Assembly: GCF_007289895.1 (NCBI RefSeq)
Contig: NZ_CP041660.1
Coordinates: 1,612,001 to 1,676,000 of the forward strand
Direction: 5' to 3'
DNA length: 64,000 nucleotides
DNA from: Catenovulum sediminis
Lineage (GTDB): Bacteria > Pseudomonadota > Gammaproteobacteria > Enterobacterales > Alteromonadaceae
Part shown: piece by piece, positions 9,864 through 48,737 of the stretch
How positions within the stretch are numbered: the stretch's first letter is position 1
Layout: the number at the start of each line of letters is the position of its first letter
The notes under the pieces: generated by a model
Told to the model about the DNA's origin: nothing
The model's input: the letters and a program-made list of their open reading frames with translations, nothing else
Databases searched by the model: none
Translations under genes and position numbers: made by a program

Positions 9864-9902
9864 ATACGGAGATCTTTGCAACTAGCATTGAAATTGTAAC
9901 GC

Positions 9903-9936
9903 TTGCCCTCATATTAGTTTGACTATTTGAGGGCAA
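9903..9936 (+). terminator. Stem-loop after pilQ, possible weak terminator
   Basis: A 9-bp perfect stem (TTGCCCTCA at 9903-9911 with TGAGGGCAA at 9928-9936) lies 40 bp after pilQ. It has no clean U-tract, so it may be a weak or Rho-assisted terminator or an RNA-stabilising 3' hairpin. Confidence 0.45.
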
Positions 9937-9960
9937 TATCGTCAATTTGTTATCCTTTAC

Positions 9961-9990
9961 TTGCTTTTGAGTGTTGAATCTTGGGATAAT
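9961..9990 (+). promoter_or_regulatory. Candidate sigma70 promoter for aroK-aroB
   Basis: TTGCTT at 9961-9966 and GATAAT at 9985-9990 are separated by 18 bp, in the gap between the pilQ hairpin and aroK. Read by eye only. Confidence 0.4.
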
Positions 9991-33174: not shown

Positions 33175-35109
33175 ATGGCATTGAAAAAACACTCTGTCGC
33201 TTTAGAAGCAGAATCATTTATAAAAAGTCCTGCTAGCAATGAATCAACTTTGTCTGCACGCCATCAACAAGAAGCCAATGAAAAACGCAAAAAAGCGAGA
33301 ACAGCAGCCAAGCAGCAGCAAGCTGCAGAGCAGATCTCATCCGCCTCAACAGAGTTGGCAGCAGGCATCAGCCAAGCCTCTTCAGCGGTAAACGAACTAA
33401 CCGCCAATATGTCGCAGATTGCTTCTGGTGCAGAAGAGTCTGCCAGCGCATGTCAAGAGAGTTTAGCTGCGGTTACCCAAATTAATGAGCGTGTTAAACG
33501 TCAGACGGATACATCTAATAAAGCAAGAGAAGTCACACAAAACTTACGCAATGTGATTCAGGCTGTGTCTAGTGATATCGATTTAATGGTGAATAATGTC
33601 GGTGATTCTTCGCGTCGACAGCAAGAATCTGTCAAATATATGACCGATTTAGAAGCACAGGCCGCGAAGATTAATGAGTCAGTTAAACAGGTTATTCGTA
33701 TTGCAGATCAAACTAATTTATTGGCGTTAAATGCAGCCATTGAGGCGGGGCGAGCAGGTAAGCATGGTAAAGGCTTTGCGGTAGTTGCTGATACCGTGCG
33801 CACTTTGGCTGAAAAAGCTGAAACCAATGCAGCCAGTATTGAAACCTTAATTCAGAAAGTACAAAGCGGAGCCAACGAAATTGGTGAAGGCGTGCGTGAA
33901 GCAGCGGAAACTGCAGCGGGTGAAGCACAAAAAGGGCAAGTCGTTAATGATAAGTTGGTTGAAGTTCGTGAGACGGTTGATTTTGTGTACGAAGGTTCTG
34001 AAGTCATAGCATCAGCAGCACAGCAAATGGCGACTGCGATAGTGCAAACACAACGTGGTTCGGAAGATATAGCGGCTTCTTCTGAAGAGCAATCTGCTGC
34101 GTGTGAAGAAAGTTTAAAAACATTAAAAGAACAGGAAGTGGCTTTATCTCAAGCACAAGCTGCATCGCAATTGCTGGAAGATTTAGCGGATGAGCTACGT
34201 AACAGCTCCGATATAGCAAAAAGTGCAGAAGGGGTTGCATCATCTTCTGAAGAGTTATCTGCTTCAGTTGAAGAGATAAACCGAGCCTCAACTGAAATTG
34301 GTAAAGCGTTAACGCAGATTAATCAAGCTGCGACACAACAAGCTTCAGCTGTTGAAGAAGGCGTATCTGCTCTGGTACAAATCGAAAAGTCTGCTCAGCT
34401 TGGTGTAGAGCGAACTGCCGAAGCATTGGATAGAGGACAGCAGTTATCGACAACATTAGAGATGAACAAAACTATGGTTGATGAAATGATCCAAGCAATT
34501 TCAGATGCTACCGATAGCGCTGATGGTAATTTAGATAAAATCGCAGAGCTCGAACGTATTAGTCGACAAATTGACAAGATCGTGGATGGTATTGCAAATG
34601 TTGCCATTCAAACATCCATGTTAGCCGTCAACGGTGGTGTGGAAGCTGCCCGCGCAGGTGAGTTTGGCAAGGGCTTTGCGGTTGTTTCAACCGACATTCA
34701 GAATCTCGCCAATGATGCAGCAGAAAATGCAGAAGAAATTAAAGACTTAGTGAAAGCTATTCAAGATCAAATTACGTTAGTGCGTTCTGACCTAAGTACC
34801 ATTTCTTATGATGTACGTAAGGAAGTAGAAAAGGCTCGAACCACAACGAAAAGCCTAGATGAAATTCAACAGCATATGACAGAGGTGCTCGACGGTAATA
34901 ATACGATTCAGCAAGCTGCAAATGAAATCCAGGAAGCAGCCAATACAGCTAAAGTAGGCCTTAATGCGATAGCCGATAGCCAAGAAGAACGATCTAAAGC
35001 CGCCGCTGAAGCGTCTTCTGCTGCCGGTCAACAAGCTGAAGGTGCAAGAGAATTAGCGACTGCAATTGAAGAAATCGCTTCGATAGCAGACGAGTTGCAA
35101 AATGCCTAA
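33175..35109 (+). CDS. Soluble chemoreceptor with two signalling tips (DosM-like)
   Basis: A 644-residue, fully soluble, almost all-helical protein containing two complete receptor hairpins in tandem. Tip 1 (about residues 175-204) reads [17 protein letters not shown] then [13 protein letters not shown]. Tip 2 (about 473-505) reads [17 protein letters not shown] then [13 protein letters not shown] and is more divergent. No ligand domain or membrane helix is visible. Vibrio cholerae DosM, as I recall, has this double-tip layout and bridges two CheA/CheW layers of a cytoplasmic array. The next gene, with three CheW domains, fits that role. First gene of the chemosensory operon; Gln/Glu-rich segments could be methylated by the local CheR/CheB. 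Confidence 0.9.
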
Positions 35110-35142: not shown

Positions 35143-36771
35143 ATGTCAAATGTAAATCATGCTGAAGCGCACAGCGCGCTTTTAGAAGACGACCAAGAAA
35201 ACCGTCGTCAATTTGTCACTTTCCATGTCGGTGCCGAGTGTATGGCATTTGATATGGAACGAGTGATGGAAATTGTAAGGGTTCCTAAAACCGTCGAGGT
35301 CCCTTTAACACCAAGTAGTCTATTGGGGTTGGCAAATCTGCGCGGCGCTATTTTGCCTGTCCTGAGTTTACGTCGAGTATTGCAACTAGACGACGCTGAG
35401 CAGACAGATGCCAGCCGGGTCATGGTTTTGAACTATGGCGGTCAACCGATGGGATTTGTGGTTGACCGGGTCACTCGCGTCATAGGTGTTCAGCCAGATG
35501 CAATCGAAAATATGGAAAAAGTTGGCAGTACAATTGATGCTAGCTTGCTTTCAGGGGTCTTGAAAAATGTAGAAGGACAAGAGTTGGTTCAACTTGTCGA
35601 TGTTGATGCTTTGACCCAACAAGAATATGGGCATTTAAAAAGTATCAGTCAAGTTGGCTTGCAAAATACATCTGTCGCTGCAAACAACCAAATATTATCT
35701 TCGCAAAATGCAGATGATGATGAGCAGAATATATTGCAATTGGTCAGTTTTAGTGTGGCCGGTCAGGAATATAGCTTTTCAATCGATGCAACGCAGGAAA
35801 TCATTCGCCTGCCGTCGAAGATAAATTCGGTCCCTAAAGCACCTCCACATGTGCTCGGTATGATAGACCTTCGCAACCGAGTGCTGCCATTGGTTAAATT
35901 AAGAACGATGTTTAACCTGCCTGAAAATGAACTGAGTGAAATGAATCGTATCGTTGTATTGACGTTGCGGCGGGGGCGTCAAGTCAGCATGGTTGGTGTT
36001 GTCGTTGACGAAGTCAAGGAGGTATTGCGCATTCAACAAGAGCAGATTGAAGCCGTACCTGCACTACTATTGGATAGCTGCGACAAACAAGAACTGGAAG
36101 GGATATGCCAATTAGATGAAGGCAAGCGCATTGTTACTTTGTTGTCAGCCGAGCGTTTATTTCATCGAGATGACGTTATTGAAGCGGTTGAAGCAGCGCA
36201 ACAGTCTGAACAAGCACATGTTGGTTCAATACCTGAGTCGCAGCGAGAAGAGGAAGATAACATGAATCTAGACGCTCAAGCAGAACAGCTTGAAGAAGAA
36301 GAGACCCAATTGGTCGTATTTAACCTTGAAAACCAAGAATACGGCGTGATGATTGAGTCGGTTAAAGAGATTCTCCGCTTACCTGAAAATTTAACGAAAG
36401 TGCCAAAAACACTTGATTTTGTCGAAGGTATGATGAATTTACGCGGTAACGTGCTGCCTATTATTGATATGCGTCGTCGATTCAATTTAACCACTCAGGA
36501 TGGCAGTGACCGGCAACGTATTTTAGTGCTAAACCACTATCATACTCAAACGGGTTACATTGTTGATAGTGTATCTGAAGTCCTTCGCCTACAACCTGAG
36601 CAGATTGAAGCTGCGCCTAGTTTGTCGGAAGACCAAGCTAAGATCATGGGACGTATCGTCAACCTTCGCCGTGACAAGCGAATAATCACTGTATTGGATC
36701 CAGAGCAATTGCTAAGTGCAAATGAACAGTCTGAGATAGTGAAGCAGAATGATGAAAATATTAATTGTTGA
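35143..36771 (+). CDS. Triple-domain CheW coupling protein
   Basis: A 542-residue protein with three CheW domains, starting near residues 24 (QFVTFHVGAECMAFDM), 197 (LQLVSFSVAGQEYSFS) and 387 (QLVVFNLENQEYGVMI). Each has the receptor/kinase-binding pattern LGLANLRGAILPV, LGMIDLRNRVLPL or EGMMNLRGNVLPI. Linkers of 30-50 residues are acidic. CheW normally has a single domain of about 160 residues. Three in one chain could staple neighbouring positions of an array (inference). Lies between the double-tip receptor and cheB, and overlaps cheB by 23 bp. Confidence 0.93.
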   Translation: MSNVNHAEAHSALLEDDQENRRQFVTFHVGAECMAFDMERVMEIVRVPKTVEVPLTPSSLLGLANLRGAILPVLSLRRVLQLDDAEQTDASRVMVLNYGGQPMGFVVDRVTRVIGVQPDAIENMEKVGSTIDASLLSGVLKNVEGQELVQLVDVDALTQQEYGHLKSISQVGLQNTSVAANNQILSSQNADDDEQNILQLVSFSVAGQEYSFSIDATQEIIRLPSKINSVPKAPPHVLGMIDLRNRVLPLVKLRTMFNLPENELSEMNRIVVLTLRRGRQVSMVGVVVDEVKEVLRIQQEQIEAVPALLLDSCDKQELEGICQLDEGKRIVTLLSAERLFHRDDVIEAVEAAQQSEQAHVGSIPESQREEEDNMNLDAQAEQLEEEETQLVVFNLENQEYGVMIESVKEILRLPENLTKVPKTLDFVEGMMNLRGNVLPIIDMRRRFNLTTQDGSDRQRILVLNHYHTQTGYIVDSVSEVLRLQPEQIEAAPSLSEDQAKIMGRIVNLRRDKRIITVLDPEQLLSANEQSEIVKQNDENINC

Positions 36772-37825
36772 TGACTCGGCGCTAATGCGCCGCTACTTAT
36801 CTGAAATGCTTGGTGAGGTTGTGGGCATTCATACTACGACAGCACGAGATGGTATTGATGCGCTAGAGGTCATCGAGCGTGAAAACCCAGATGTGGTCAC
36901 GCTCGATATCAATATGCCGGAAATGGATGGCTTGACGTGCCTCAGTCATATCATGACTCGCTTTCCACGCCCAGTTGTAATGTTGTCGTCATTAACGGAG
37001 GCTGGGGCGATGGCAACATTTGAGGCGCTTGAAATGGGTGCTGTTGACTATATCGCTAAACCGGGTGGCACGGTTTCTTTAAATATTAAAGAGATTCGAA
37101 GTCAAATACTGATAAAAGTTCGCACCGCTTACCGACAGCGACATTTGTTTAATAAAAAAGCCGTGTTGGCGAGCAAACCCGTACCATCAGTGGGAATTCG
37201 TACAAGTGATACCCATGTACGGGGCATTATAAGTATTGCTTCATCTACTGGAGGCCCTTCGGCATTAGAGAAAGTGCTGCCTTTTTTACCGGCAAACCTA
37301 CCATTGCCAGTTGTCGTTTGTCAGCACATGCCGGGGTCGTTTACCGGTGTATTTGCGCAACGGCTTGATGGTCGCTGCGCACTGAATGTCGTGGAAGTCA
37401 ATAAAGCCATGGAACTCAAAGCAGGCACTATTTATATCGGACAAGGAGATGCTGATTGTATGTTGAGTTTGCGGGATGGTAAGCCTTATTTAGTAACCTT
37501 ACCCGCAAGCGCTAGTTTTAACTGGCACCCCAGTGCGAGTCGATTTTTACAATCAGTTCATAAGTACTTTCCTGCTCAGCGGACTTTATCCGCAATATTG
37601 ACCGGTATGGGGGATGATGGATCACGAGAAGCTTTGAAATTATACCAAGCAGGTGGGATAACAATGGCCGAAAGAGAAATAGATTGTGCTGTATTTGGGA
37701 TGCCAAAAGCATTAATTGAATTATCTGGTGCAGGCTCTGTGTTAGGTATCAACGAAATGTCTGGCGCTATTGTCGCTGGCGCAGAAAAGATCGCTAAATT
37801 GGGAGTAATAGAAACATGGGTTTAG
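36749..37825 (+). CDS. cheB: Chemotaxis methylesterase/deamidase CheB
   Basis: Response regulator that removes methyl groups from, and deamidates, chemoreceptors. REC (about 1-120) has IVDDSALMRR and the phospho-Asp in VVTLDINMPEMDG. The catalytic domain (about 160-350) has the Ser-His-Asp triad in SIASSTGGPSAL, VCQHMPGSF and LTGMGDDGS. Two adjacent ATGs (36749, 36752) lie inside the cheW gene. The stop overlaps the next gene. Confidence 0.95.
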   Translation: MMKILIVDDSALMRRYLSEMLGEVVGIHTTTARDGIDALEVIERENPDVVTLDINMPEMDGLTCLSHIMTRFPRPVVMLSSLTEAGAMATFEALEMGAVDYIAKPGGTVSLNIKEIRSQILIKVRTAYRQRHLFNKKAVLASKPVPSVGIRTSDTHVRGIISIASSTGGPSALEKVLPFLPANLPLPVVVCQHMPGSFTGVFAQRLDGRCALNVVEVNKAMELKAGTIYIGQGDADCMLSLRDGKPYLVTLPASASFNWHPSASRFLQSVHKYFPAQRTLSAILTGMGDDGSREALKLYQAGGITMAEREIDCAVFGMPKALIELSGAGSVLGINEMSGAIVAGAEKIAKLGVIETWV

Positions 37826-38454
37826 TAAAGACTTCAGACCGACAGCAGGTAAATACCTGCACAACCGAGCAACCAGATCCAATGAAGGCATTAGACAGCG
37901 AGTTTGTCATAACCAGACGAGCGGCCGCTAAATCATTGCGTTTGCAAGCAGACAGTGCTCCGCTGCTGCTTAAATTGCTGGAGCAAGAACCAAACCAATT
38001 AGTCGTAGAGGCTTTATTTGATAGCCTGTTGTACCTATACCAGCATACCAAACACAAATCGCAGATTGTTGAGCAAGTTGTTACTTTGCTGCCAGAATTA
38101 GATGCGGCTAAACGCAATAGTGCAATTCTATTTCTGAGCGCTTGTCCGATCGAAATGACCGAACATATGCCTAAATTGTTAGCTTCTCCTAATACTGATC
38201 TGCAATTATACGCGCTAGATATATTGCGCAGCATGAATCATATGGATGCGCCTAAATGGTTGGCTGAGATGTTACCCAGAGAGTTGCATGTGAATGTAGT
38301 GATCAGTGTACTAGAGCGGATTGCCGAATGCCAACAACCGAATTTATTGGATCAGGTTGAGTGCTTGTGCGCGCGCTACCAACATGAACCACTTGTGGTT
38401 TTTTCTGCTCATATGGCGATCGAGCGATTGGGAGGTGCGTGTGAGCAGCCTTAG
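37816..38454 (+). CDS. HEAT-repeat-like helical protein of the chemosensory operon
   Basis: A 212-residue protein made of repeated helix pairs, with segments such as EFVITRRAAAKSLRLQA, LVVEALFDSLLYLYQHT and NTDLQLYALDILRSMN that look like HEAT repeats. No catalytic motif, signal peptide or membrane helix. It overlaps cheB at its start (10 bp) and cheR at its end (14 bp), so it is tightly co-translated and probably belongs to the complex. The V. cholerae cluster I has an uncharacterised gene at the same place (recollection). Possible adaptor; function not assigned. Confidence 0.75.
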   Translation: MGLVKTSDRQQVNTCTTEQPDPMKALDSEFVITRRAAAKSLRLQADSAPLLLKLLEQEPNQLVVEALFDSLLYLYQHTKHKSQIVEQVVTLLPELDAAKRNSAILFLSACPIEMTEHMPKLLASPNTDLQLYALDILRSMNHMDAPKWLAEMLPRELHVNVVISVLERIAECQQPNLLDQVECLCARYQHEPLVVFSAHMAIERLGGACEQP

Positions 38455-39334
38455 TGCGCTATTAACCAGCCCGCAAGAGCAATCTGCGGACGGTTTTCTT
38501 ACATCTATTTCAGATGTGGAATATGGTCAGATTCGCGATTATTTTTACAAGCGTTCCGGTATCTATTTTGATGATAGCAAACGTTATTTTGTTGATAAAC
38601 GAGTGATTAGCCGAATCAAAGCGACAGGCCATGAAGATTTTCGCAGTTATTTTTCGTTTCTTCGTTTTGACCCATCGCAGAGTGAATTGCAATATTTAGT
38701 GAATCTCATGACTGTCAATGAGACGTATTTTTTTCGAGAAGAATATCAATTGCGAGCCATGGTGCAAGGCGCGCTGCAGGACATTGTGCGAAACAAGCAA
38801 CCAGGCGATAGCATACGCATTTGGTCTTTACCTTGCTCAACTGGTGAAGAGGCTTTTAGTATCGCACTTTATCTTTTGGAGTTTTGGCCGGAATTGGAAA
38901 AATACGAAGTTGAAATTATTGGCTCAGATATAGATACACATGTTTTGCAAAAAGCAAAACGCGGGAAATACAGTGCGCGCTCAGTGAAAAATCTACCCAA
39001 ATATATCAAACAGAAATATTTCCGCCATGAGGTTCAATCTGATACCTACCAACTGGTGCAAGAAGTTAGAGAGTGTGTCGGTTTTACGACTGTTAATTTG
39101 CATGATGATCAGTCAATGGCCGAGTTTTCTAAATTTGATTTGATTTTTTGTCGCAACCTATTGATTTACTTCGATGATGTTTCACGGCGTCAAGCGGCGG
39201 AACGTTTATTTGATGCCTTAAACCCAGAGGGCATACTGTTTCTTGGGCACTCAGAGACAATGAGTAGAGTGTCCTCATTATTTAAAGTTCGCCGTTATTG
39301 CGACACGACCGGTTATAAAAAAGAGCTGCCATGA
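38441..39334 (+). CDS. cheR: Chemotaxis protein methyltransferase CheR
   Basis: SAM-dependent methyltransferase for receptor glutamates. A helical N-domain (about 15-85) is followed by NLMTVNETYFFREEYQL, the SAM-binding IWSLPCSTGEEAFSIA, SDIDTHVLQKAKRGKYS and DLIFCRNLLIYFDD. I choose GTG at 38441, five bases after GGGAGG, giving 297 residues; the frame is open 40 codons upstream, but only in the shadow of the preceding gene. The stop overlaps the next ATG. Confidence 0.94.
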   Translation: MSSLSALLTSPQEQSADGFLTSISDVEYGQIRDYFYKRSGIYFDDSKRYFVDKRVISRIKATGHEDFRSYFSFLRFDPSQSELQYLVNLMTVNETYFFREEYQLRAMVQGALQDIVRNKQPGDSIRIWSLPCSTGEEAFSIALYLLEFWPELEKYEVEIIGSDIDTHVLQKAKRGKYSARSVKNLPKYIKQKYFRHEVQSDTYQLVQEVRECVGFTTVNLHDDQSMAEFSKFDLIFCRNLLIYFDDVSRRQAAERLFDALNPEGILFLGHSETMSRVSSLFKVRRYCDTTGYKKELP

Positions 39335-39720
39335 ATACTGAAATTACACGTACTGTACTTGTTGTTGATGATGCAATGACTATTCGAAAATACCACCGTA
39401 CATTGTTAGAAGAATTAGGCTGTGAAGTCGTTGAAGCCGAAAATGGCATAGATGCGTTGGAGAAACTTCTCGAACACCAGCTGTCACTGTGTTTAGTAGA
39501 CGTCAATATGCCACTGATGGACGGATTTACATTTGTCACTGAGCTGCGCAAAGGGGCAGAGCAAGCAGACTGTCCGGTAATTATGATAAGTACTGAATCA
39601 CAACAGGGAGAGCTTTCCCGCGGCTACCAGTGTGGTGTTAACCTTTATCTTGTAAAACCGGCTCCGGCAGAAAGTTTAAAGCTTTATTGTCAACAATTGA
39701 TGGAGGGTAGCGTCCAATGA
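39331..39720 (+). CDS. CheY-like response regulator
   Basis: A single REC domain of 129 residues with VVDDAMTIRK (acidic pair), phospho-Asp in LCLVDVNMPLMDG, the Thr/Ser switch in IMISTES and Lys in LVKPAP. It starts within the cheR stop (ATGA) and overlaps cheA by 4 bp. Probable direct phosphate acceptor of the CheA in the same operon. Its output target (motor or other) is unknown, since no flagellar genes are in view. Confidence 0.92.
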   Translation: MNTEITRTVLVVDDAMTIRKYHRTLLEELGCEVVEAENGIDALEKLLEHQLSLCLVDVNMPLMDGFTFVTELRKGAEQADCPVIMISTESQQGELSRGYQCGVNLYLVKPAPAESLKLYCQQLMEGSVQ

Positions 39721-42053
39721 ACCCCTTGCTAGAACAGTTCCTCAGTGAATCGCGAGAACTGCTAGAGTTTTGTGATGACACTTTTTTACAACTAGAAAAG
39801 AACCCTCAGGATAGCGACACCCTAAATCGATTGTTTCGTTATGTACACACGATAAAAGGTGGATCTGGTTTATTTGAAATTGCACCATTTACTCAATTGG
39901 TACATGTTGCTGAGGATTCATTATCTAAAGCCCGTGAGGGACTATTACAGATAAGTTCAGACGGTATTGATCTTTACTTACAAATACTCGATCAATTAAC
40001 TTCTTGGCTAGATGAATTGGAAGAAAATGGGCAGTTAGGTGAACTCTCTATCCAGCAAAGTGAAGTGTTGGTCGGGCAAATTCGCCAGCGGATATTGAAG
40101 GAAAATACCGAACAGCCAAAACAAGAATTGCCCGTGGCCGATGGCTTGTCTGTTACATCGGTAGAACAAGTCATGGGTGCAATGGGGTTACAGGGGGTAA
40201 GTGAAAGATTACTTTGTGAGCTGAAAGAACAGGTAGAAAACTTACAGCAAAGCGCAAACTTAGTCGTCTATCGCCCTGACACTAATGCATTTTTTAGTGG
40301 TGATGATCCAATTTGTTTTTGGCTTCAATTACCCGGTTTATTATGGCAAGGGATCGATGGCGATTTTAGCCAAGAAAACTTAAATGCGTTTGATCCTTAT
40401 GCATGTAAATTGACGTTTTTGGCGTTAACGACAGCTGATGAAACTCAAATAAAGGAAAATCTAAATTATGTGTGGCACAGTGTCGCGCTACACAAAATTA
40501 TGCCAATAGACAGAAAGGTCCTGCCAGATAACCCTATTAAGGCGGCATTTGGTATCGAAGAGGTTTTGTTTTCACAAATGCAAATCCTTTTGCATATCGA
40601 TAATAACCCGCATCCAGAATCAAGCTTAGCTTCGGTTTCGCGTGTATTGTCAGGGTTAGTTGGCACTGTGCCTGAGCTCGATAAATTGCCACCCATTCAA
40701 AATGAGCTAGGCAAGCTAAATCCAGATTATCTTAAAGCTCTGGAGTGTATAACAGCAGAGGGAAGTGCGACCGATTGTGTATCTGAGCCAGATTTATCCA
40801 ACGATCAGAAATTGCCCGCTAAAATTACACCATCGGTTGGAGCTCCAGCTAATAACATGCAGACTGCTAAATCTGAGCCTATTCGTACCATCAAAGTTGA
40901 CCAAGATAAACTTGAACAGTTGGTTGACCTAGCGGGTGAATTAATCGTTGCTAAAAACAGTCTGAATCATCTCGCTCGTAAAGTAGAAAATGAATATGGT
41001 ATCAAAGCCTTAACTCGCGATATTAAATGTGAACACGGTGTGTTAAACCGAATCACTGAATCTTTGCAAGATGTCGTTATGCAGATTCGTATGATCCCAG
41101 TTGCTACCATATTTCAGCGTTTTCCAAGGTTAGTACGTGATTTATCCCGACGTTTGGGAAAAGATATAGATTTACAAGTCTGTGGAGAAGAAACTGAAGC
41201 AGATAAAAATATTGTTGAACAGTTGGCGGATCCTTTAATTCACTTAGTGCGAAATAGCATAGATCACGGCATTGAAATGCCAAGCGATCGTCAAAAGGCC
41301 GGCAAATCATCTACCGGTGTAATACGTTTAGTTGCTAAAAATATACAGGATTCAGTACAAATTGAGATTCAAGATGATGGTGCTGGTATCGACCCTGAGG
41401 TTATCAAAGAAAAGGCTGTTAGCAAAGGGGTGATATCTAAAGACGCGGTCGCTGGCATGTCAGATGAAGACGTCCTGCAGCTCATTTTTGAGCCGGGATT
41501 TTCGACATGTGAGCAAGTTTCTGAGCTCTCAGGTCGGGGAGTTGGAATGGATGTTGTGAAAACAACGGTAAATCGTTTAGGTGGAATGATTGATCTGCAA
41601 AGTACCAAAGGGGAAGGTTCAGTTATACGTGTCACACTGCCAGCTTCTATCACAGTTTCTCGGGTAATGATGTTTGAAATGGATGAACAAGTTTATGGCA
41701 TTCCGGTAGAAGGTTTAACCGAGACAATTAAGATTAGACCGCAACAAATTAGAAGAATAAAACAAGGCGAGTCTTATGTACTGCGTAATAAATTGGTTCC
41801 ATTGTACCGGATGCACAAGTTACTGGGTATTAGAAGCACCAAAAACCAACCCGAGTTACCGATTCTTAATCTAAATATCAATGGCACAGTTGCAGGTTTT
41901 GCTGTTGATAAATTATTAGAAGGGGTTGATGTTATTATTAAACCGCTGGAGGGGATTATGTCGCGTTTTCCGTTATATTCTGGTGCTGCCGTGTTGGGCG
42001 ATGGCCGGGTATTGTTGGTACTTAATCCTAAGGAGATGCAATTATGCCACTAG
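39717..42053 (+). CDS. cheA: Chemotaxis histidine kinase CheA
   Basis: A 778-residue kinase. The P1 Hpt domain has the phospho-His near residue 44 in VHTIKGGSGLFE. A long, poorly conserved middle region (about 145-390) follows, in which no standard CheY-binding P2 is obvious. The dimerisation domain starts KVDQDKLEQLVDLAGELIVAKN. The ATPase shows HLVRNSIDHGIE, DDGAGID and GRGVGMDVV. The C-terminal CheW-like domain runs from about 650, ending LLVLNPKEM. All catalytic boxes are intact. Its stop overlaps the following small gene. Confidence 0.95.
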   Translation: MNPLLEQFLSESRELLEFCDDTFLQLEKNPQDSDTLNRLFRYVHTIKGGSGLFEIAPFTQLVHVAEDSLSKAREGLLQISSDGIDLYLQILDQLTSWLDELEENGQLGELSIQQSEVLVGQIRQRILKENTEQPKQELPVADGLSVTSVEQVMGAMGLQGVSERLLCELKEQVENLQQSANLVVYRPDTNAFFSGDDPICFWLQLPGLLWQGIDGDFSQENLNAFDPYACKLTFLALTTADETQIKENLNYVWHSVALHKIMPIDRKVLPDNPIKAAFGIEEVLFSQMQILLHIDNNPHPESSLASVSRVLSGLVGTVPELDKLPPIQNELGKLNPDYLKALECITAEGSATDCVSEPDLSNDQKLPAKITPSVGAPANNMQTAKSEPIRTIKVDQDKLEQLVDLAGELIVAKNSLNHLARKVENEYGIKALTRDIKCEHGVLNRITESLQDVVMQIRMIPVATIFQRFPRLVRDLSRRLGKDIDLQVCGEETEADKNIVEQLADPLIHLVRNSIDHGIEMPSDRQKAGKSSTGVIRLVAKNIQDSVQIEIQDDGAGIDPEVIKEKAVSKGVISKDAVAGMSDEDVLQLIFEPGFSTCEQVSELSGRGVGMDVVKTTVNRLGGMIDLQSTKGEGSVIRVTLPASITVSRVMMFEMDEQVYGIPVEGLTETIKIRPQQIRRIKQGESYVLRNKLVPLYRMHKLLGIRSTKNQPELPILNLNINGTVAGFAVDKLLEGVDVIIKPLEGIMSRFPLYSGAAVLGDGRVLLVLNPKEMQLCH

Positions 42054-42280
42054 ATAATCATGAAAATATTATGCACCTGCAACAAGATTGCGGGGCAGAG
42101 GAAGCCGAGCAATTGCTTGAGTGGCTACTTGCCAATCCTAAAGGGCAAATCAGTTTGGAGAGTTGCAGCCACCTGCATACAGCGGTTTTACAGGTTTTAA
42201 TGGCTTTTCGGCCTAAAATTTGTGCACCTTCACTTACCATGCCGTTAGACAAACTTTTGCAATCGGCAGGTGTTGTTTAA
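42044..42280 (+). CDS. Small STAS-like protein after CheA
   Basis: A 78-residue protein overlapping the end of cheA by 10 bp. Its central segment, ISLESCSHLHTAVLQVLMAFRP, resembles the strand-helix core of STAS domains, but it is shorter than a full STAS domain (about 100). V. cholerae cluster I has a small uncharacterised gene in this place (recollection). Given the stressosome STAS proteins in the next operon, a link between the two is conceivable but unproven. Last gene of the chemosensory operon. Confidence 0.7.
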   Translation: MPLDNHENIMHLQQDCGAEEAEQLLEWLLANPKGQISLESCSHLHTAVLQVLMAFRPKICAPSLTMPLDKLLQSAGVV

Positions 42281-42317
42281 TTTCTATTTTTTCTCTTTTT
42301 CTTTCTCTTTTCTATTC

Positions 42318-42358
42318 ACTTAACATGCTGACTGCGAACGCGCAGCTGCATGTTAAGT
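42318..42358. other. Long near-perfect stem-loop between the chemosensory and stressosome operons
   Basis: Arms ACTTAACATGC (42318-42328) and GCATGTTAAGT (42348-42358) pair over 11 bp. Inside, CTGCG and CGCAG pair around an AACG loop. A 37-base pyrimidine tract (42281-42317) precedes it. No T-run follows, so it is not a canonical intrinsic terminator; it may be a Rho-type or RNA-processing structure or a DNA cruciform. Confidence 0.6.
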
Positions 42359-42391
42359 ATCGTACAACCCCCTTTCTGTTGACTCCCATCT

Positions 42392-42455
42392 AGGGATTTC
42401 CCTTGGTCAAAATCAGGTAACCCCCCAGATACATAAAAACCCTGGCTGCTATTAT
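42392..42455 (+). promoter_or_regulatory. Operator pair and -10 for the CheY-MCP-stressosome operon
   Basis: The proximal site TCAGGTAACCCCCCAGAT (42413-42430) lies 37 bp before TATTAT (42450-42455, five of six to consensus), with no -35. The distal site AGGGA-TT-TCCCT (42392-42403) is centred about 22 bp upstream. Same geometry as three other promoters in the region. Confidence 0.62.
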
Positions 42456-42521
42456 TTAATACAAGACGCCAACTAAAGCTTTCGGTGCTTAGTTTGTATT
42501 TTTTAGATGTTGGAGAAAGAG

Positions 42522-42896
42522 ATGAAAAACGTACTTTTGGTTGATGACTCTGCGACGATTCTTATGAGTATGGAACAGTTGCTAGGCAAAGTTGTAAAAA
42601 CTCAGACAGCGAGTGATGGCCAACAAGCATTGCAAAAATTAAGTGGTGGGTACAAGCCTGATTTGATCATCACGGATATCAATATGCCCAATATGAATGG
42701 CTTGGAATTAATCAGTCAAGTTAAAAAGCTACCCGCTTTTCGTTTTACGCCTATATTGGTGCTAACGACTGAATATGATGAAAGCAAACGTGCAGAAGCG
42801 AAAAAAATGGGCGCAACCGGATGGTTGGTTAAGCCAGTTAAAGGTCAGCAAATGCTAGACGTGCTTAAACAAGTTTTGCCTGGAGCGGTCGCTTAA
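42522..42896 (+). CDS. CheY-like response regulator opening the stressosome operon
   Basis: A single REC domain of 124 residues: [10 protein letters not shown] (acidic pair), phospho-Asp in [21 protein letters not shown] with the switch Thr, and WLVKPVKG with the conserved Lys. I use ATG 42522, seven bases after GGAG; an ATG at 42507 is in frame but unsupported. Similar to the second CheY of V. cholerae cluster I by position (recollection). Probably phosphorylated by the CheA of the preceding operon. The MCP starts 17 bp downstream. Confidence 0.9.
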
Positions 42897-42913
42897 ATCA
42901 GAGCGGAGGATAT

Positions 42914-44191
42914 ATGCAATCAGCATCGATATTAAATAAAAAAACCAGTACGCCAGTGAGCTGGAGTGGTTTCGTGCGGCCCTTATTAATATGCCTGATA
43001 AAGGCACTTGGCTTTGCGACTGCTATCACAATACTGGCCATTGGAATTGTTCTGATCAATTCAGAGCAAACGATTGCAGATATTTGGTTAAACACCTCTG
43101 AACCGCTCGCGATTTTGTTTGCCCTTTTTGCATCTGGTTGTTTTTTGTTGAGTAGCAAGTTTTGCCAGACTCGCACTGCACTCAATGCAAAAATTGACAG
43201 ATTACAACAGCAACTTGCTGAAAAAGATCTTGAATTGGTTAATCAGCAAAAACATCAAGTGGAACTTTGCAGTACGATTCAGCAGATTTGTAAGCTTTCT
43301 GGGCTCCCTTTATCTGCTGTTTCGGAGCAAGTCTCTGAAGCTGCTTTTTCCATAATTCAACGTGTTAGAGACCTTGATTCTAGTGCCAATAGTTTGGTGG
43401 GGTACCTAGATAATGCTGATTTTGATGCCGTCGACCTGAAATCTGAAATAGATGCATCCTCAGGTAAATTGACTATGGTTGCTGAGTATTTAAAAACTTT
43501 GCCTGAGATGATTCAAGGTCAGCAAAAGGCCATGCAATCTGTTTTGGCTGAAATGGATAGTGTTAAGCAATTTGTTGGTGAGATCAGTAGCATTAGTGAT
43601 CAGACAAACTTACTGGCTTTAAATGCCGCAATTGAAGCCGCAAGGGCGGGTGAATTCGGAGCCGGGTTTGCCGTGGTGGCAAATGAAGTTAGAGGATTGG
43701 CTAACCGCACGCAGGAAGCCGCTCAATCAATCCAAGGCCGAGTTGAACAGTTTGACCGAACGATTCAAGCTAATTTATCTAATGATACTAAAGAGCAGCT
43801 TGCAAAAAAACTGGAAGCTTGCGCAGGTTTACCGGCATTTATTGATATTGTGCATAAGAATTATTCTGATGTGCGGCAATATTACAAAACGATGCTGACC
43901 GTAGTGACAGAACATAATCATGCCATCGCCACAGGATTAAACGAAATGCTTGGAAGTGTTCAGTTTCAAGATGTCGTGGTACAGCAGATTGATCGGTTGC
44001 AAGGTTTTTATTCCGAAGCTGAATTGACCGGTCAGCGATTAGAAGACAAGCCAGATGACAATATCGACGTTAGTTATCTAATCACAGAGCTTAATGACAA
44101 GATTCTTAAATTTAACTCTGCAGACCTAAACCATCATAGGGAGAGTGCAGGAAACTGTAACCCTGACGCTCTAAAAATTGAGCTTTTTTAA
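42914..44191 (+). CDS. Methyl-accepting chemotaxis-type receptor with short membrane hairpin
   Basis: A 425-residue receptor. Two hydrophobic segments (about 20-42 and 58-78) with only a short loop between them leave no room for a periplasmic ligand domain, so sensing is probably internal or by a partner. The signalling tip reads [18 protein letters not shown] then [19 protein letters not shown] (about 225-260). The C-terminal part contains [16 protein letters not shown]. It ends 15 bp before the RsbR-like gene, so receptor and stressosome scaffold are co-transcribed. Confidence 0.9.
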
Positions 44192-44206
44192 GCTGAGGAT
44201 TATGAT

Positions 44207-45052
44207 ATGAAAGACCTTGATATAACGACGTTTATGACAGAAAATTTTGCCCAAATTATATCTCTTTGGCAATCTAAACTGGAAAAAATCTTAGGACAAA
44301 GACTCGGCAATGCGCCTTCTATACAGCTTGAACGACACTGTAAAGGTTTGCTAGAAAGTTTTATTGGCACCCTCACAATAAAGGACAATGATCATGCCGA
44401 AGCAGAGTTGATTACCTTACTGACTGAGGTGGGTACGATTTGGGCAAGAAAAGGGCTTAGTGCCAGTGAAACATCTAACTTTATTCTAACGCTGAAAGAA
44501 GCCTTAAACAGCAATGTATTTGAGGTTTACGGTGATTCAGACGCACAAGCATTTCAGATGATTTTAGAGTGGCAGCAGCGCTTAGATCAACTCTTAATGA
44601 TATGTCACCAAGCTTATACTAATAGTCGGGAAAAATTAATAAAACAACAAAATGCTGCCTTGTTAGAGCTCTCCTCTCCTGTTGTAAAAATGTGGGATCA
44701 AATTCTTTTGGTGCCATTGATAGGGGTGATAGATACCGTGCGAGCAAGGCAAATTACCGAATCTTTGTTAACCGAAATAACTAAGCAGGAATCGACTGTC
44801 GCTGTTATGGATTTGACCGGTGTACCAGTATTTGATACTGCAGTAGCTGGGCACCTTATTAAAACCGTTAATGCTGCACATATGTTGGGGTGTAAAGTTA
44901 TTCTAACGGGTATTAGTGCAGAAGGCGCGTTAGTTTTGACTAAACTGGGGATTGAGTTTAAACAAGTATTGACGCGTGGTAATTTACACAGTGGTGTTCA
45001 AGCTGCCTTTGCCTTAAAAGGTTTGTCTGTCACACTAAAATCGGTTGCTTAA
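44207..45052 (+). CDS. rsbR: Stressosome scaffold protein RsbR (RsbRD_N-STAS)
   Basis: A 281-residue protein with an all-helical N-terminal sensor domain (about 10-150) resembling the RsbRD N-terminal family and a C-terminal STAS domain (about 160-275, ILLVPLIGVIDTVRARQI onward). Thr211 in MDLTGVPVFDT aligns with the regulatory Thr of Bacillus RsbRA next to the conserved Asp. GAGGAT precedes the ATG. In Bacillus, RsbR and RsbS form a large icosahedral complex that holds the kinase RsbT until stress. The rsbS, rsbT and rsbX homologues follow, completing the module. Confidence 0.9.
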   Translation: MKDLDITTFMTENFAQIISLWQSKLEKILGQRLGNAPSIQLERHCKGLLESFIGTLTIKDNDHAEAELITLLTEVGTIWARKGLSASETSNFILTLKEALNSNVFEVYGDSDAQAFQMILEWQQRLDQLLMICHQAYTNSREKLIKQQNAALLELSSPVVKMWDQILLVPLIGVIDTVRARQITESLLTEITKQESTVAVMDLTGVPVFDTAVAGHLIKTVNAAHMLGCKVILTGISAEGALVLTKLGIEFKQVLTRGNLHSGVQAAFALKGLSVTLKSVA

Positions 45053-45053
45053 A

Positions 45054-45422
45054 ATGAATTTTAAAACCCCTCTTCTGCAACTAGGTGACGTATTAATCAC
45101 CAGCATCCAAACTGATTTATCGGATGCACAAGTGAGTGAATTTCAGCAAGATTTAGTTCGTGCAATTGGCGTAAAAAATGCCAACGCTGTTGTGATAGAC
45201 ATCTCTGCTTTGGATGTGGTCGATTCATTTATGGCAAGGGTCATCAATGATACCGCAAGGGCTGCGCGCTTAGTCGGAGCTGAAGTGGCGGTATGTGGCA
45301 TTCAGCCTTATGTAGCCATGACATTAGTCGAAATGGGGCGTCAGCTTTTTGATGTGCAGACCACTTTTAATCTAGAGCAGGCGTTGGCAGCAGTAAAAGC
45401 TGCTGTAGACGTTCGGCTCTGA
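45054..45422 (+). CDS. rsbS: Stressosome STAS protein RsbS
   Basis: A single STAS domain of 122 residues. The regulatory Ser (Ser58) lies in VIDISALDVVDSFMAR, aligned with the phosphorylated Ser59 of Bacillus RsbS. It continues with GAEVAVCGIQPYVAMTLVEMG, close to the family consensus. I use ATG 45054, two bases after the rsbR stop; a TTG nine bases earlier is in frame. Expected to co-assemble with RsbR and bind RsbT. Confidence 0.93.
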   Translation: MNFKTPLLQLGDVLITSIQTDLSDAQVSEFQQDLVRAIGVKNANAVVIDISALDVVDSFMARVINDTARAARLVGAEVAVCGIQPYVAMTLVEMGRQLFDVQTTFNLEQALAAVKAAVDVRL

Positions 45423-45437
45423 TTCAGTGGAGGTATT

Positions 45438-45854
45438 ATGAACAACAAGCTGAAAAGCATTCAATTGCCGATTAAAACAGTCGATGACATCGTTCTTACT
45501 CGTCGAAAGGCTAGAGAAGTTGCTATAAAAATGGGGTTTGGTTTAGCCGATCAAACACGTTTAGCGTCAGCTGTTTCTGAACTCGCTAGAAATGTTATTC
45601 AATATGCCCAACAAGGAGAGTGTGAAATAAGTGATCAGTCAACGCCTGAGATCGTTATATTGCAGGTTTTAATCTTTGATTATGGTCCCGGAATAGCTGA
45701 TTTAGAAGCTGCACTGCGAGATGGTTTTAGTACCAGCCAGGGGTTAGGCGCGGGTTTACCGGGCTGCCGGCGTTTAATGGATGAGTTTTATATAGAAAGT
45801 GGTTTGCAACAGGGAACCAAAATTCGGATACAAATTCATGCAAGTTCATTGTGA
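45438..45854 (+). CDS. rsbT: Serine/threonine switch kinase RsbT
   Basis: A 138-residue GHKL-fold kinase. N box SELARNVIQYA, DYGPGI (G1) and GLGAGLPGCRRLMDEF (G2) are clear, as in Bacillus RsbT. A strong GGAGG precedes the ATG. Expected to phosphorylate RsbS and RsbR, leave the stressosome, and activate a protein with an RsbU-type N-terminal domain. Here that is the histidine kinase four genes on. Its 3' end overlaps a second RsbT-like gene by 17 bp. Confidence 0.93.
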   Translation: MNNKLKSIQLPIKTVDDIVLTRRKAREVAIKMGFGLADQTRLASAVSELARNVIQYAQQGECEISDQSTPEIVILQVLIFDYGPGIADLEAALRDGFSTSQGLGAGLPGCRRLMDEFYIESGLQQGTKIRIQIHASSL

Positions 45855-46332
45855 AAGTATAGCGTTAGATATGCCAGCATGGCAGCTTTTAGATAAACCA
45901 GAAGTATTAAGCCATACCAAAATTGTGCACGAGTTGGATGTGTTTGATGCTCGGCGTGATGTTTTAAAAATGGCTTTAAGCCTGGGCTTTAGAAATGACC
46001 AGGCATATAGTTTGGTGACCGCCATGACTGAGCTAGGTAACAATATTGTATTTCATTCTGTTGGTGGGTATTTGTTATTGCATGCTTATTATGCATTGCA
46101 TGAACTAACCGGTGAGCAAGCTATCGTCGCCTTGATGCTGATAGCGCAAGATTCAGGCCCAGGCATTGCAGATATAGAGCTTGCTAAGCAAGAAGGTTAT
46201 AGCTCTATTAATAGTATGGGCTGTGGTCTGTCGGGGGTGTTCCGTCTGATGGATGCTTGTCGTATTGAGTCGTTTCCGAGCGGCACCCGAGTTACCGCGA
46301 CCTTATATTCTGCAAATGGCTGGGAACGTTAA
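45838..46332 (+). CDS. Second RsbT/RsbW-like GHKL ATPase
   Basis: A 164-residue protein with another GHKL ATP-binding fold: N box AMTELGNNIVFHS, QDSGPGIAD and GCGLSGVFRLMDAC. The N-terminus (about 1-40) is longer than in RsbT. I use ATG 45838, inside the rsbT end; the frame is open 13 codons upstream. Its stop overlaps the next ATG (TAATG). In some non-Firmicute stressosome loci a second anti-sigma-type ATPase occurs next to rsbT. It could be a second switch kinase or an RsbW-like binder; no anti-anti-sigma partner beyond RsbS is visible. Confidence 0.85.
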   Translation: MQVHCESIALDMPAWQLLDKPEVLSHTKIVHELDVFDARRDVLKMALSLGFRNDQAYSLVTAMTELGNNIVFHSVGGYLLLHAYYALHELTGEQAIVALMLIAQDSGPGIADIELAKQEGYSSINSMGCGLSGVFRLMDACRIESFPSGTRVTATLYSANGWER

Positions 46333-46913
46333 TGCTGGAAGTCGGAACGGGCGTGCGAGAGATGGCAGGAGAAGCCGTCAGTGGTGATCAAGCTGGGTAT
46401 TGGTATTTGGCGCACGGTGATTTATTGGCCTGTTTAGTCGATGGTTTAGGGCATGGTGAATCAGCATTTCAAGCCGCTAATCAATGTTTGGCTACGGTTG
46501 AGCAGATACACACACACCCTATATCTGAGATTCTGCAGGTGTGCAATGAAGAGTTACGCAATACGCGTGGTGTTGCAATAGGGCTTGCCTTGATACAACC
46601 TGAAAATAATCAATTGAAATACTGTGGTGTCGGTAATATTCGAGCGACTATCACCGGACACCATCTGCGTAAACTTGTTTCTATTGGCGGGATCTTAGGC
46701 TGTGAACCTAAAGTACAGCGACCAATACTAACCGTGCCCTTCGAGATAGGCAAAGATTCATTTGTCTTGTGTTCAGATGGCATGAGTGCAGATATGCCCC
46801 ATTCAATGTATCAATGTAAGCCTTTGTATCCAAACCTAAACACTTTGATAGATGAGTTGTTATGCCAGTGGGCTAGTATAAATGATGACGCATCAATGAT
46901 GATAGTAAGATGA
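46332..46913 (+). CDS. rsbX: RsbX-like PP2C serine phosphatase
   Basis: A 193-residue PP2C/SpoIIE-fold phosphatase. Metal-binding Asp residues are visible in LVDGLGHG, LCSDGMS and NDDASMM. It is short and single-domain, like RsbX, which resets the stressosome by dephosphorylating RsbS and RsbR. Coupled by overlap to the ATPase gene before it and the kinase gene after it (ATGA). Confidence 0.9.
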   Translation: MLEVGTGVREMAGEAVSGDQAGYWYLAHGDLLACLVDGLGHGESAFQAANQCLATVEQIHTHPISEILQVCNEELRNTRGVAIGLALIQPENNQLKYCGVGNIRATITGHHLRKLVSIGGILGCEPKVQRPILTVPFEIGKDSFVLCSDGMSADMPHSMYQCKPLYPNLNTLIDELLCQWASINDDASMMIVR

Positions 46914-48364
46914 ATCAGATAACCAAAAATAACGCGCAATACGCAGGTAACAGTCAAATGTTGCTTTCATCATTTTTGACATTGTACCAAGACTACATTT
47001 CATCTGGTGATGAAAATTTATTATTGGCATTTAACGACTTGGGTAAAGAATTGCATCAAGCAGGCACTCCGCCTGAGAAAATAGTGGAAGGGTACGCATC
47101 TGCATTACAACAAATCACAGTCCCCAATTGTCTGTCTGAACCAGAGAAGTTAATGCCTTTAATGGAAGTTATCATGACTTATGGCATTAGTTACCGGCAA
47201 CAAATTTACTGGCAAAAAGAACATAGCAATGCGCAGTTTAGCCGCGTATTAGAAGCATCTGGACACCTGATTTGCATTACTGATCAAGGTAATCAAATAC
47301 ATTACACGAATCCAGCATTTAGGCAACTTTTTAGAAATTGCACTGAAGAACTAAATGAAGAATACCGTTTTTTTGGACTACCCAAATGCCCTGAAGAAAT
47401 CACGCAAAAACTTTTAGCGGGGCAGCGTTGGCAAGGAGAGATCGCTACTCACAATCATAGTGGCAAAGCTGTGGTACTGAACTTAACGGCATTCTCCATT
47501 GGTTTAGGTGGTCAGTATTCCAATCATTATGTATTTATGGCTGAAGACATAACCGAACAGCGCGTTATGGAAAAACGTTTGCAACAAGCGCAAAGACTCA
47601 GTGTGCTGGGTGAGTTAGCGTCTGGACTTTCACATGAACTAAATAATGTAATGACGATAATAACCGGTTTTGCAGGCTTAATTCGTGATGAAAGTGATGC
47701 GCAAAGCAGAGCGGAATATGTTGATGAAATATTGGCTGCCATAAATAAAGGTCAAGAATTAAACCAACAGATACTGAGCTTTGCGACAGGCCGGCAACAA
47801 GCACTTGAAAAAGCAGATTTACACCAGTTAATGGCTAATATTGATAAATTTTTAACAACCGCCGTGGGCTCTAATATTGATATGAATTTGGACGTTCCTG
47901 CCAATATATTGGTGAGTTTAAGTGAGCAACATCTTAGCCAAATATTAACTAATCTATGTATCAATGCGCGTCATGCTATTGAGAAACGTCATGCAGACAC
48001 TGGCGGGCTAATTGAAATTGGTTTTACTGTGACTGATAGTCCGGCATGGTTGAAGTTCACTGTAACTGACAACGGTTGTGGTATGAGTGAAGCGGTGCAA
48101 AAACAAATCTTTGAACCCTTCTTTACCACTAAAGATGTAGGTAAAGGCACCGGGCTTGGCTTGTCTTTGCTGCAAAAACTGGTACATGAATATAACGGCG
48201 AAATTTATGTTCGCTCAGATATCAATTGGGGCACTGAATTTATCATGTACCTTCCTGTCATTGTGGTTGACGAATCAATCACACCAACCACACCAACCAC
48301 TATTCCTGAACCTGTTTTACAACACTGGTTGAATGCAGAAAATAGTGTTAATAGAGAGCGTTAA
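46910..48364 (+). CDS. Histidine kinase with RsbU-type N-terminal domain
   Basis: A 484-residue soluble kinase. Residues about 18-100 (LTLYQDYISSGDENLLLAF, GTPPEKIVEGYASAL and LMEVIMTYGISYRQQ) match the RsbT-binding domain of Bacillus RsbU. A PAS domain follows (about 105-215). The HisKA domain carries His242 in GLSHELNNVMTIITG, and the HATPase has NLCINARHAI, DNGCGMS and GTGLGLSL. In Bacillus the RsbU domain sits on a phosphatase; here it sits on a histidine kinase, so RsbT release probably switches a phosphotransfer pathway. ATGA overlap with rsbX; the receiver gene follows 1 bp later. Confidence 0.9.
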   Translation: MNQITKNNAQYAGNSQMLLSSFLTLYQDYISSGDENLLLAFNDLGKELHQAGTPPEKIVEGYASALQQITVPNCLSEPEKLMPLMEVIMTYGISYRQQIYWQKEHSNAQFSRVLEASGHLICITDQGNQIHYTNPAFRQLFRNCTEELNEEYRFFGLPKCPEEITQKLLAGQRWQGEIATHNHSGKAVVLNLTAFSIGLGGQYSNHYVFMAEDITEQRVMEKRLQQAQRLSVLGELASGLSHELNNVMTIITGFAGLIRDESDAQSRAEYVDEILAAINKGQELNQQILSFATGRQQALEKADLHQLMANIDKFLTTAVGSNIDMNLDVPANILVSLSEQHLSQILTNLCINARHAIEKRHADTGGLIEIGFTVTDSPAWLKFTVTDNGCGMSEAVQKQIFEPFFTTKDVGKGTGLGLSLLQKLVHEYNGEIYVRSDINWGTEFIMYLPVIVVDESITPTTPTTIPEPVLQHWLNAENSVNRER

Positions 48365-48365
48365 T

Positions 48366-48737
48366 ATGAGTAAAATATTAGTATTAGATGACGACCCACA
48401 AATCCTCAAAATGGTATCGTTAATTCTTAAAAAGAGGGGACACCATATACTGACAGCTGAAAACGGTTGTCATGCTTTACAGACGATTGAATCACAGCAG
48501 ATTGAGGTGTTGTTAACCGATATCTTGATGCCGGATGTTGATGGGATTGAAGTCATTAATACCTGTCGAAAAAAGGCTTTACCTGTCAAAATTATAGCGA
48601 TGTCCGGAGGGCGGCGTAAAATATCAGCAGAATTCAATCTACAATCAGCTGCTATGCTTGGTGCCAGTGAGATATTGCCCAAGCCCTTTACCCAGGAGCA
48701 ACTGGTTGAAAAGATAGAACGAGTAACTAGCTGTTGA
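48366..48737 (+). CDS. Stand-alone receiver protein, output of the stressosome kinase
   Basis: A 123-residue single REC domain with LVLDDDPQIL, phospho-Asp in VLLTDILMPDVDG, IIAMSGG and Lys in LPKPFTQ. I use ATG 48366, one base after the kinase stop; an in-frame ATG at 48333 lies within the kinase gene. It has no DNA-binding or enzymatic domain, so its output must be by protein contact. Last gene of the operon. Confidence 0.9.
   Translation: MSKILVLDDDPQILKMVSLILKKRGHHILTAENGCHALQTIESQQIEVLLTDILMPDVDGIEVINTCRKKALPVKIIAMSGGRRKISAEFNLQSAAMLGASEILPKPFTQEQLVEKIERVTSC

Follow-up and report, generated by a model that had tools for sequence, protein, structure and literature searches.

A stressosome module joined to an F9 (DosM-type) chemosensory cluster in Catenovulum sediminis and other bacteria

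Cluster I of Vibrio cholerae encodes a chemosensory system of the F9 class, with a soluble receptor containing two signalling domains (DosM, VC1403), a protein of three concatenated CheW domains (VC1402), the kinase CheA (VC1397) and a short receptor with a membrane region (VC1394) (PMC7534058; papers are cited by PubMed Central number, for the parts of their text available to us). Its arrays are purely cytoplasmic, are found in late stationary phase and are induced to cluster by low oxygen, and the function of the class is called "elusive" (PMC7534058). No phenotype is reported for the cluster I array (PMC11940527), and evidence for a role in the stress response has been reported for a different class, F7 (PMC7184735). 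Here we describe a stretch of 64,000 nucleotides from Catenovulum sediminis (contig NZ_CP041660.1, positions 1,612,001 to 1,676,000), referred to as the window, in which an F9 chemosensory operon is followed on the same strand by the genes of a stressosome.

In described stressosomes, the switch kinase RsbT acts through the RsbU_N domain, which has spread to kinases (PMC12143880, PMC9237108). Stressosome loci with kinase and receiver outputs, some containing RsbU_N, have been listed, and the available part of that account names no chemosensory genes (PMC9237108). Aerotaxis has been speculated upon from a CheY-like gene near the stressosome of Vibrio brasiliensis (PMC4976288), an idea taken up again in PMC4260858, and mutants in the stressosome locus of Vibrio vulnificus show reduced motility (PMC10014275); as far as their available text goes, these three papers are the nearest printed ideas to a link between arrays and stressosomes. 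No paper among the matches listed in the open-access literature describes an F9-stressosome cluster, and an earlier notice is possible. The stressosome and the F9 array are each known; their conserved merger is the new part. We consider it rather probable that the stressosome is built into this F9 (DosM-type) cluster as a second input.

Nine genes in one direction had been proposed for positions 42522–48737, and the open reading frames (ORFs), all on the plus strand, and Pfam agree on them and on their domains. The first encodes the lone receiver CheY2 (42522–42896, PF00072; the ORF opens at 42507, and the start at 42522 agrees better with relatives). It is followed by a receptor-like protein with the tip of a methyl-accepting chemotaxis protein (MCP; 42914–44191), matched by the MCPsignal family at 200–299 only. 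Next come RsbR (44207–45052), with an RsbRD_N sensor domain (PF14361) and a STAS domain (PF01740), RsbS (45054–45422, STAS) and the switch kinase RsbT (45438–45854, HATPase_c). A second GHKL kinase, RsbT2 (45838–46332), matches HATPase_c_2 below the cut-off; its ORF is open from 45799, with the nearest ATG at 45838. The series ends with an RsbX-type PP2C phosphatase (46332–46913, SpoIIE), a histidine kinase of RsbU_N-PAS-HisKA-HATPase architecture (46910–48364), assigned from Pfam and from an RsbU_N profile compared with RsbU structures, and the lone receiver REC2 (48366–48737, PF00072; ORF open from 48333). With the likeliest starts, the gaps from CheY2 onwards are 17, 15, 1 and 15 bp, then the genes overlap, and the last gap is 1 bp, so that none exceeds 17 bp.

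The genes of a stressosome RST module are all represented: an RsbR with sensor and STAS domains, an RsbS with its phospho-serine, the GHKL kinase RsbT and the phosphatase RsbX. RsbR combines RsbRD_N and STAS in the window and in 7/7 relatives scanned, and this amino-terminus rules out a globin-coupled RsbR of the Vibrio type. Both positions that we take, from Bacillus subtilis, to be the phospho-threonines of RsbR are kept in 12/12 aligned proteins, one of them as serine in the Rubrivivax locus L311 (L and G numbers are our labels for loci and genomes). The serine of the VDS motif of RsbS and the LGAGLPG box of RsbT are likewise present in 12/12. RsbT2, 35% identical to RsbT, has its N, DxGPGI and GCGL boxes in 11/11, and RsbX has DGLGHG in 11/11. 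The genome of the window contains a second RSTX module (L017, G000:C1:823744-827109; also L032), with an RsbR amino-terminus that looks PAS-like by eye, followed by a receiver-bearing protein of 903 amino acids and a receiver protein of 368 amino acids. Among plasmids, 98 records contain an RsbT relative, all at less than 60% identity.

The chemosensory half starts with a DosM-like soluble chemoreceptor of 644 amino acids (33175–35109), which has two MCPsignal stretches and no hydrophobic stretch, and a triple-CheW protein (35143–36771, three CheW stretches). These are followed by CheB (36749–37825, Response_reg and CheB_methylest), a HEAT-repeat protein without an assigned role (37816–38454, PF13646 at the cut-off), with relatives at the same place, after CheB and before CheR, in further F9 loci, CheR (38321–39334, PF01739 and PF03705; the start is uncertain and the ORF overlaps the HEAT gene), the lone receiver CheY1 (39331–39720, PF00072) and CheA (39717–42053, with Hpt, H-kinase_dim, HATPase_c and CheW domains). 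The gene order from VC1403 to VC1394 is presumably matched by the whole window operon. The double-domain soluble receptor and the triple CheW are the marks of F9, an assignment that rests on receptor and CheW architecture as defined in PMC7534058. The chemosensory operon beside the stressosome genes, noted in the initial annotation, is of the F9/DosM cytoplasmic-array type instead of generic, and it continues past CheA: a 78-amino-acid gene follows, and 241 bp separate this from CheY2. DosM relatives 46–50% identical lie beside the linked clusters of G345, G570, G574, G605 and G711–G714, the copy in G712 being broken by stops. In the Halochromatium metagenome-assembled genome (MAG) locus L312, in-frame stops split DosM into two ORFs, by sequencing error or as a broken gene.

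RsbT served as the search query, which also picks up loci lacking chemosensory genes. The search of contigs gave 80 kept loci, five with adjoining F9 genes (L067, L069, L083, L105 and L114). Of 369 genomes sampled from the class, 24 have an RsbT match; the regions of ten genomes besides the window's own were inspected and one is linked, that of G345 (Methylobacter tundripaludum SV96). In the order of G345 there are matches in 47/251 genomes, with 40 of the 47 inspected and four linked. DosM, counted at E 1e-80 or better with the top four candidates scored per genome, is present in 12 of these 47 RsbT-positive and in 10 of the 204 RsbT-negative genomes of this order. The order of Ectothiorhodospira has matches in 4/47, with three full clusters and one split, and that of Rubrivivax in 13/300, where the seed genome alone is linked. 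Among relatives of the window's genome, 2/60 have DosM, and 3/98 match RsbT at E 5e-20 or better.

In all, eleven loci have both modules together (the window, L310, L295, L296, L312, L192, L193, L197, L148, L311 and L105), with Ectothiorhodospira, Halochromatium, Methylobacter, Rubrivivax and Zoogloea among the linked genera. The gene order is the same in nine; among these, the kinase is the last gene of L193, and two additional genes are present in L197. Most relatives have tight gene overlaps. The other two, both MAGs, are rearranged: in L311 (Rubrivivax) the receiver precedes RsbR and CheY2 is at the end, while in L105 (Zoogloea) the kinase and receiver precede RsbR and the DosM part lies on another contig, L313. 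In L297, CheY2-MCP-RsbR-S-T stand alone and the DosM-to-CheA half is elsewhere in the genome. Receptor and stressosome therefore occur together in 11 loci other than the window, with the MCP gene directly beside RsbR in nine of them, and the adjacency is conserved outside the strain. Linkage in other orders rules out a strain-specific accident. Eight of the ten further loci keep the order and two keep the linkage in rearranged form, which makes it unlikely that the arrangement arose by chance. In a tree of RsbS plus RsbT from 129 loci, all 12 linked or split stressosomes fall in a clade of 18 (SH-aLRT 99); the tree is from a quick search, with long-branch warnings that include the branch of the window. 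A second GHKL gene follows RsbT in all of the other six clade members (L068, L072, L076, L144, L152 and L209). Of these, L152 has RsbS-T-T2-X without RsbR. DosM is located elsewhere in the genomes G763 and G213, which have unlinked or split clade stressosomes. Outside the clade, the Chloroflexi MAG loci L120 and L142 have RST modules with several RsbR paralogues that adjoin CheW/MCP or CheW/CheR genes.

The kinase and REC2 had been regarded as the output of the stressosome. The window kinase matches RsbU_N in Pfam at E 5e-5, below the cut-off, and a profile of 13 such amino-termini matches solved RsbU structures at E 4.6e-12 to 1.1e-10, with B. subtilis RsbU at E 4.6e-12. In Pfam, RsbU_N scores E 0.003 or better for 11 of the 12 linked-locus proteins and E 0.18 for the remaining one (L311); none of the five kinases from F9 loci without linkage matches it. 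The domain also occurs in three clade members that lack F9 (L068, L072 and L144); in L144 it is on the gene after RsbX, and a second kinase (8419–9987) is without it. The AlphaFold2 model of the RsbU_N region is weak (pLDDT 72), and Foldseek ranks 2j6z first (E 0.15). REC2 proteins of F9 loci with and without a stressosome form a single set of 19 rows (support 96, two rows ungrouped; FastTree on few columns), so that REC2 seems to be an F9 component. Kinase cores make up a single set of 27 rows with eight ungrouped, making kinase orthology between the two kinds of locus likely, and the CheY2 proteins from F9 loci group together; ORFs beyond length or coverage limits, including the L311 receiver and the L259 kinase, were omitted from the kinase and receiver trees. 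REC2, and probably the kinase as well, belong with the F9 operon and are therefore likely a shared output, not one of the stressosome only. In Methylobacter tundripaludum SV96, a protein of RsbU_N-PAS-GGDEF-EAL architecture and an extra RsbT2-like gene are inserted in the cluster (L197:14192-16814). This protein is a possible cyclic di-GMP output, and its position alongside the extra RsbT2-like gene hints at a coupling between RsbT2-like kinases and outputs that carry RsbU_N.

A nearly complete CheA is present in 17 unlinked F9 loci, counting L268, which belongs to a relative of the window's genome. These loci contain the 78-amino-acid STAS protein in 17, CheY2 in 15, an MCP-like gene in 14, ParA in 12 and REC2 in eight cases, and in five unlinked loci a PAS-PAS-histidine kinase is next. 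Since these loci mostly keep CheY2 and MCP, have the receiver in 8/17 and, where they have the kinase, show PAS and no RsbU_N on it, the stressosome resembles an input that can be exchanged on a kinase/receiver pair associated with F9.

The receptor-like protein has two hydrophobic stretches within residues 20–84, and Pfam gives a partial MCP signalling domain only, with no ligand domain recognised. At one aligned place, 25 of 26 receptor-like proteins have [FY]QDxxxQ, L252 being cut short. Complete proteins end in ELF (IELF in the window, QLF in L297). CheZ carries FQDLTGQ, in which we take the Asp and Gln (i, i+4) to be the catalytic pair; the motif is in none of seven ordinary MCPs of the window's genome. 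Two relatives of 188–194 amino acids (L250 and L255) retain both flanks without the MCP tip; they resemble stand-alone CheZ-like proteins. Pfam CheZ (PF04344) matched one of six proteins scanned, that of L310, at E 0.0016 and 18.8 bits against a cut-off of 30.7, and no match was reported for the window, L192, L297, L263 or L250. Compared with true CheZ by hhalign, the tip-less profile gives P 0.0013 over 171 columns with the motifs in register, but a probability of only 7%; P is 0.013 and 0.014 (probability 3%) for two further alignments, and 0.044–0.89 for 20 controls. Against the PDB, CheZ comes at E 1.2, ranked behind unrelated helical proteins, and the tip-less pair gave no hit. With CheZ, the protein shares FQDxxxQ and possibly a weak full-length profile similarity, and differs in lying below the Pfam cut-off, in the inserted MCP tip and in an (I/F)ELF end where CheZ ends in SLGF. 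The likeness to CheZ is suggestive. The protein had been described as a chemoreceptor; it has an MCP tip, no recognised ligand domain and CheZ-like motifs. Two ORFs of 406–408 amino acids in a relative (G063:C1:1972113-1972505 and 2307228-2307497) are of receptor-like size and match Pfam CheZ weakly (E 7e-4, below the cut-off).

The 78-amino-acid ORF (42044–42280), which overlaps the CheA stop and had been missed by the initial annotation, is without a Pfam match, and a sequence search against solved structures gave nothing of note. Its AlphaFold2 model (pLDDT 85.5) has a STAS fold, for which the top Foldseek matches are anti-sigma-factor antagonists including RsbV and SpoIIAA (best E 4.4e-4). 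A relative lies behind CheA in 10/10 linked loci and, as given above, in all 17 unlinked ones; none was found in the split locus L342. Assuming the register, the usual phospho-serine site is apparently mostly alanine or threonine. RsbT2 as its obligate partner is unsupported, as none of the six clade loci without adjacent F9 has the protein near RsbT2. Behind it, the intergenic gap (42281–42506) contains a hairpin with 11-bp arms and a fold z-score of -3.4, possibly a terminator or regulator site together with a second promoter. Consensus scans gave 25 promoter-like sites against 16.1 (standard deviation 3.9) in shuffles and 7 terminator-like sites against 6.0 (standard deviation 2.8), and are not used as evidence. 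The guanine plus cytosine fraction is 0.435 in the F9 part, 0.417 in the Rsb part and 0.413 in the window; base composition gives no support to recent transfer as a single island. The low counts among relatives given above (DosM 2/60, RsbT 3/98) may reflect loss or transfer.

In the mechanism that we propose, RsbR and RsbS would build a pseudo-icosahedral stressosome holding RsbT. Upon stress, RsbT would phosphorylate RsbR and RsbS, which RsbX would reset, and freed RsbT, or its paralogue RsbT2, would bind the kinase at its RsbU_N domain and linker and so alter the flow of phosphate to REC2. The DosM/CheW/CheA array, which would be double-layered and cytoplasmic as in other F9 systems, would signal via CheY1 and CheY2, and its signal may converge with that of the stressosome at this output pair or at the CheZ-like receptor protein. 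Where F9 lacks a stressosome, the kinase, if present, would sense via its own PAS domains. Integration of array and stressosome signalling, as suggested initially, is likely in the functional sense because the adjacency is conserved in 11 other loci, with three details differing; physical contact between the two is inferred. A stronger version, which we think unlikely, would make the DosM array and the stressosome one sensory body, in which a membrane CheZ-like phosphatase of CheY2 docks by its MCP tip, RsbT2 carries the signal to the RsbU_N kinase and the inputs are summed at REC2; if true, F9 arrays would be stress-response devices, not taxis devices.

Several observations weigh against a built-in stressosome. 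In the order of G345, F9 more often stands without an adjacent stressosome than with one: DosM is found in 22/251 genomes, with a stressosome adjacent in 4/22 and not in 18/22 (contig ends truncate three of the 18, and the CheB-to-CheA genes are missing from L249). A tree of CheA, CheR and CheB from 27 F9 operons, in which no single lineage of F9 with stressosome was found, needs four changes for the linked loci, at least three of them forced by supported branches, and because of this gains and losses of the stressosome are indistinguishable. Loci beyond the clade, L073, L150 and L151 among them, have second GHKL genes too. Of the six clade members without adjacent F9, the genome of L152 has DosM elsewhere, and none was found in those of L068, L072, L144 and L209 (three of them MAGs). 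Among the 12 linked proteins, only that of L148 passes the Pfam cut-off for RsbU_N; the other 11 stay below it. Lastly, the 241 bp with a strong hairpin before CheY2 mean that the two halves of the window cluster may have separate promoters; in eight relatives (L310, L295, L296, L312, L192, L193, L197 and L148) the same interval ranges from a 26-bp overlap to 16 bp.

The two modules could be no more than co-regulated neighbours, induced in stationary phase or at low oxygen, each with its own targets and exchanging no signal. The late stationary phase arrays of V. cholerae F9, clustering at low oxygen (PMC7534058), the increase of the V. vulnificus stressosome in stationary phase (PMC9237108) and the 241-bp gap all fit this, but the receiver is common to F9 with and without a stressosome while the input domain of the kinase switches with it, most relatives have tight overlaps and the linkage is confined to one stressosome clade; we regard mere co-regulation as somewhat unlikely. 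Alternatively, the stressosome might govern assembly or position of the F9 array via the receptor-like protein, the STAS protein or ParA instead of a shared output. ParA, possibly an array-positioning factor, follows REC2 in 6/11 full loci (L310, L295, L296, L312, L192 and L197), the STAS protein lies behind CheA, and F9 arrays are conditional (PMC7534058). However, unlinked F9 loci have the STAS protein (17/17) and ParA (12/17) as well, and there is no ParA after REC2 in the window, which leaves control of assembly quite improbable. A signal in the other direction, with the membrane-anchored receptor-like protein or CheY2 acting on RsbR, usually the next gene, would agree with L297, where MCP and RsbR stay adjacent though the CheA half lies apart. 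In Zoogloea and Rubrivivax, however, MCP and RsbR are separated by other genes, and we know of no contact between RsbRD_N and a receptor; we hold this direction to be very improbable.

A stressosome serving as a second input to F9, which we prefer, would matter for both complexes. The F9 array has been imaged in detail while its function stayed elusive, and a conserved stressosome in its cluster gives a lead on its purpose: the hypothesis is that F9 arrays feed a stress response, with the kinase/receiver pair as the probable common output. It would also widen the partners of stressosomes beyond those that we found described in Gram-negative bacteria. On kinases associated with F9, RsbU_N and PAS domains seem to alternate. 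Environmental bacteria exist that would allow deletion and imaging of both large complexes.

When compared with the RsbRST-RsbU pathway of B. subtilis, the window cluster has the same RST core and also an RsbU_N domain, the target of RsbT in that pathway (PMC12143880), but RsbU_N is on a histidine kinase instead of a PP2C phosphatase, and there is no sigma factor among the cluster genes. The RSTX stressosomes of Vibrio, Ruegeria and other Gram-negative bacteria are closer, with RsbR-S-T-X followed by kinase and receiver genes, some with RsbU_N (PMC9237108, PMC4976288); as described there, they have a globin-RsbR, where the window cluster has an RsbRD_N-RsbR, the extra RsbT2 and the F9 operon. 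In the available text of the review on V. cholerae F9, the term stressosome is absent (PMC7534058). Going by the description in that review, the V. cholerae F9 system and the window operon are alike in their double-domain soluble receptor, triple CheW, CheA and a membrane receptor without a ligand domain.

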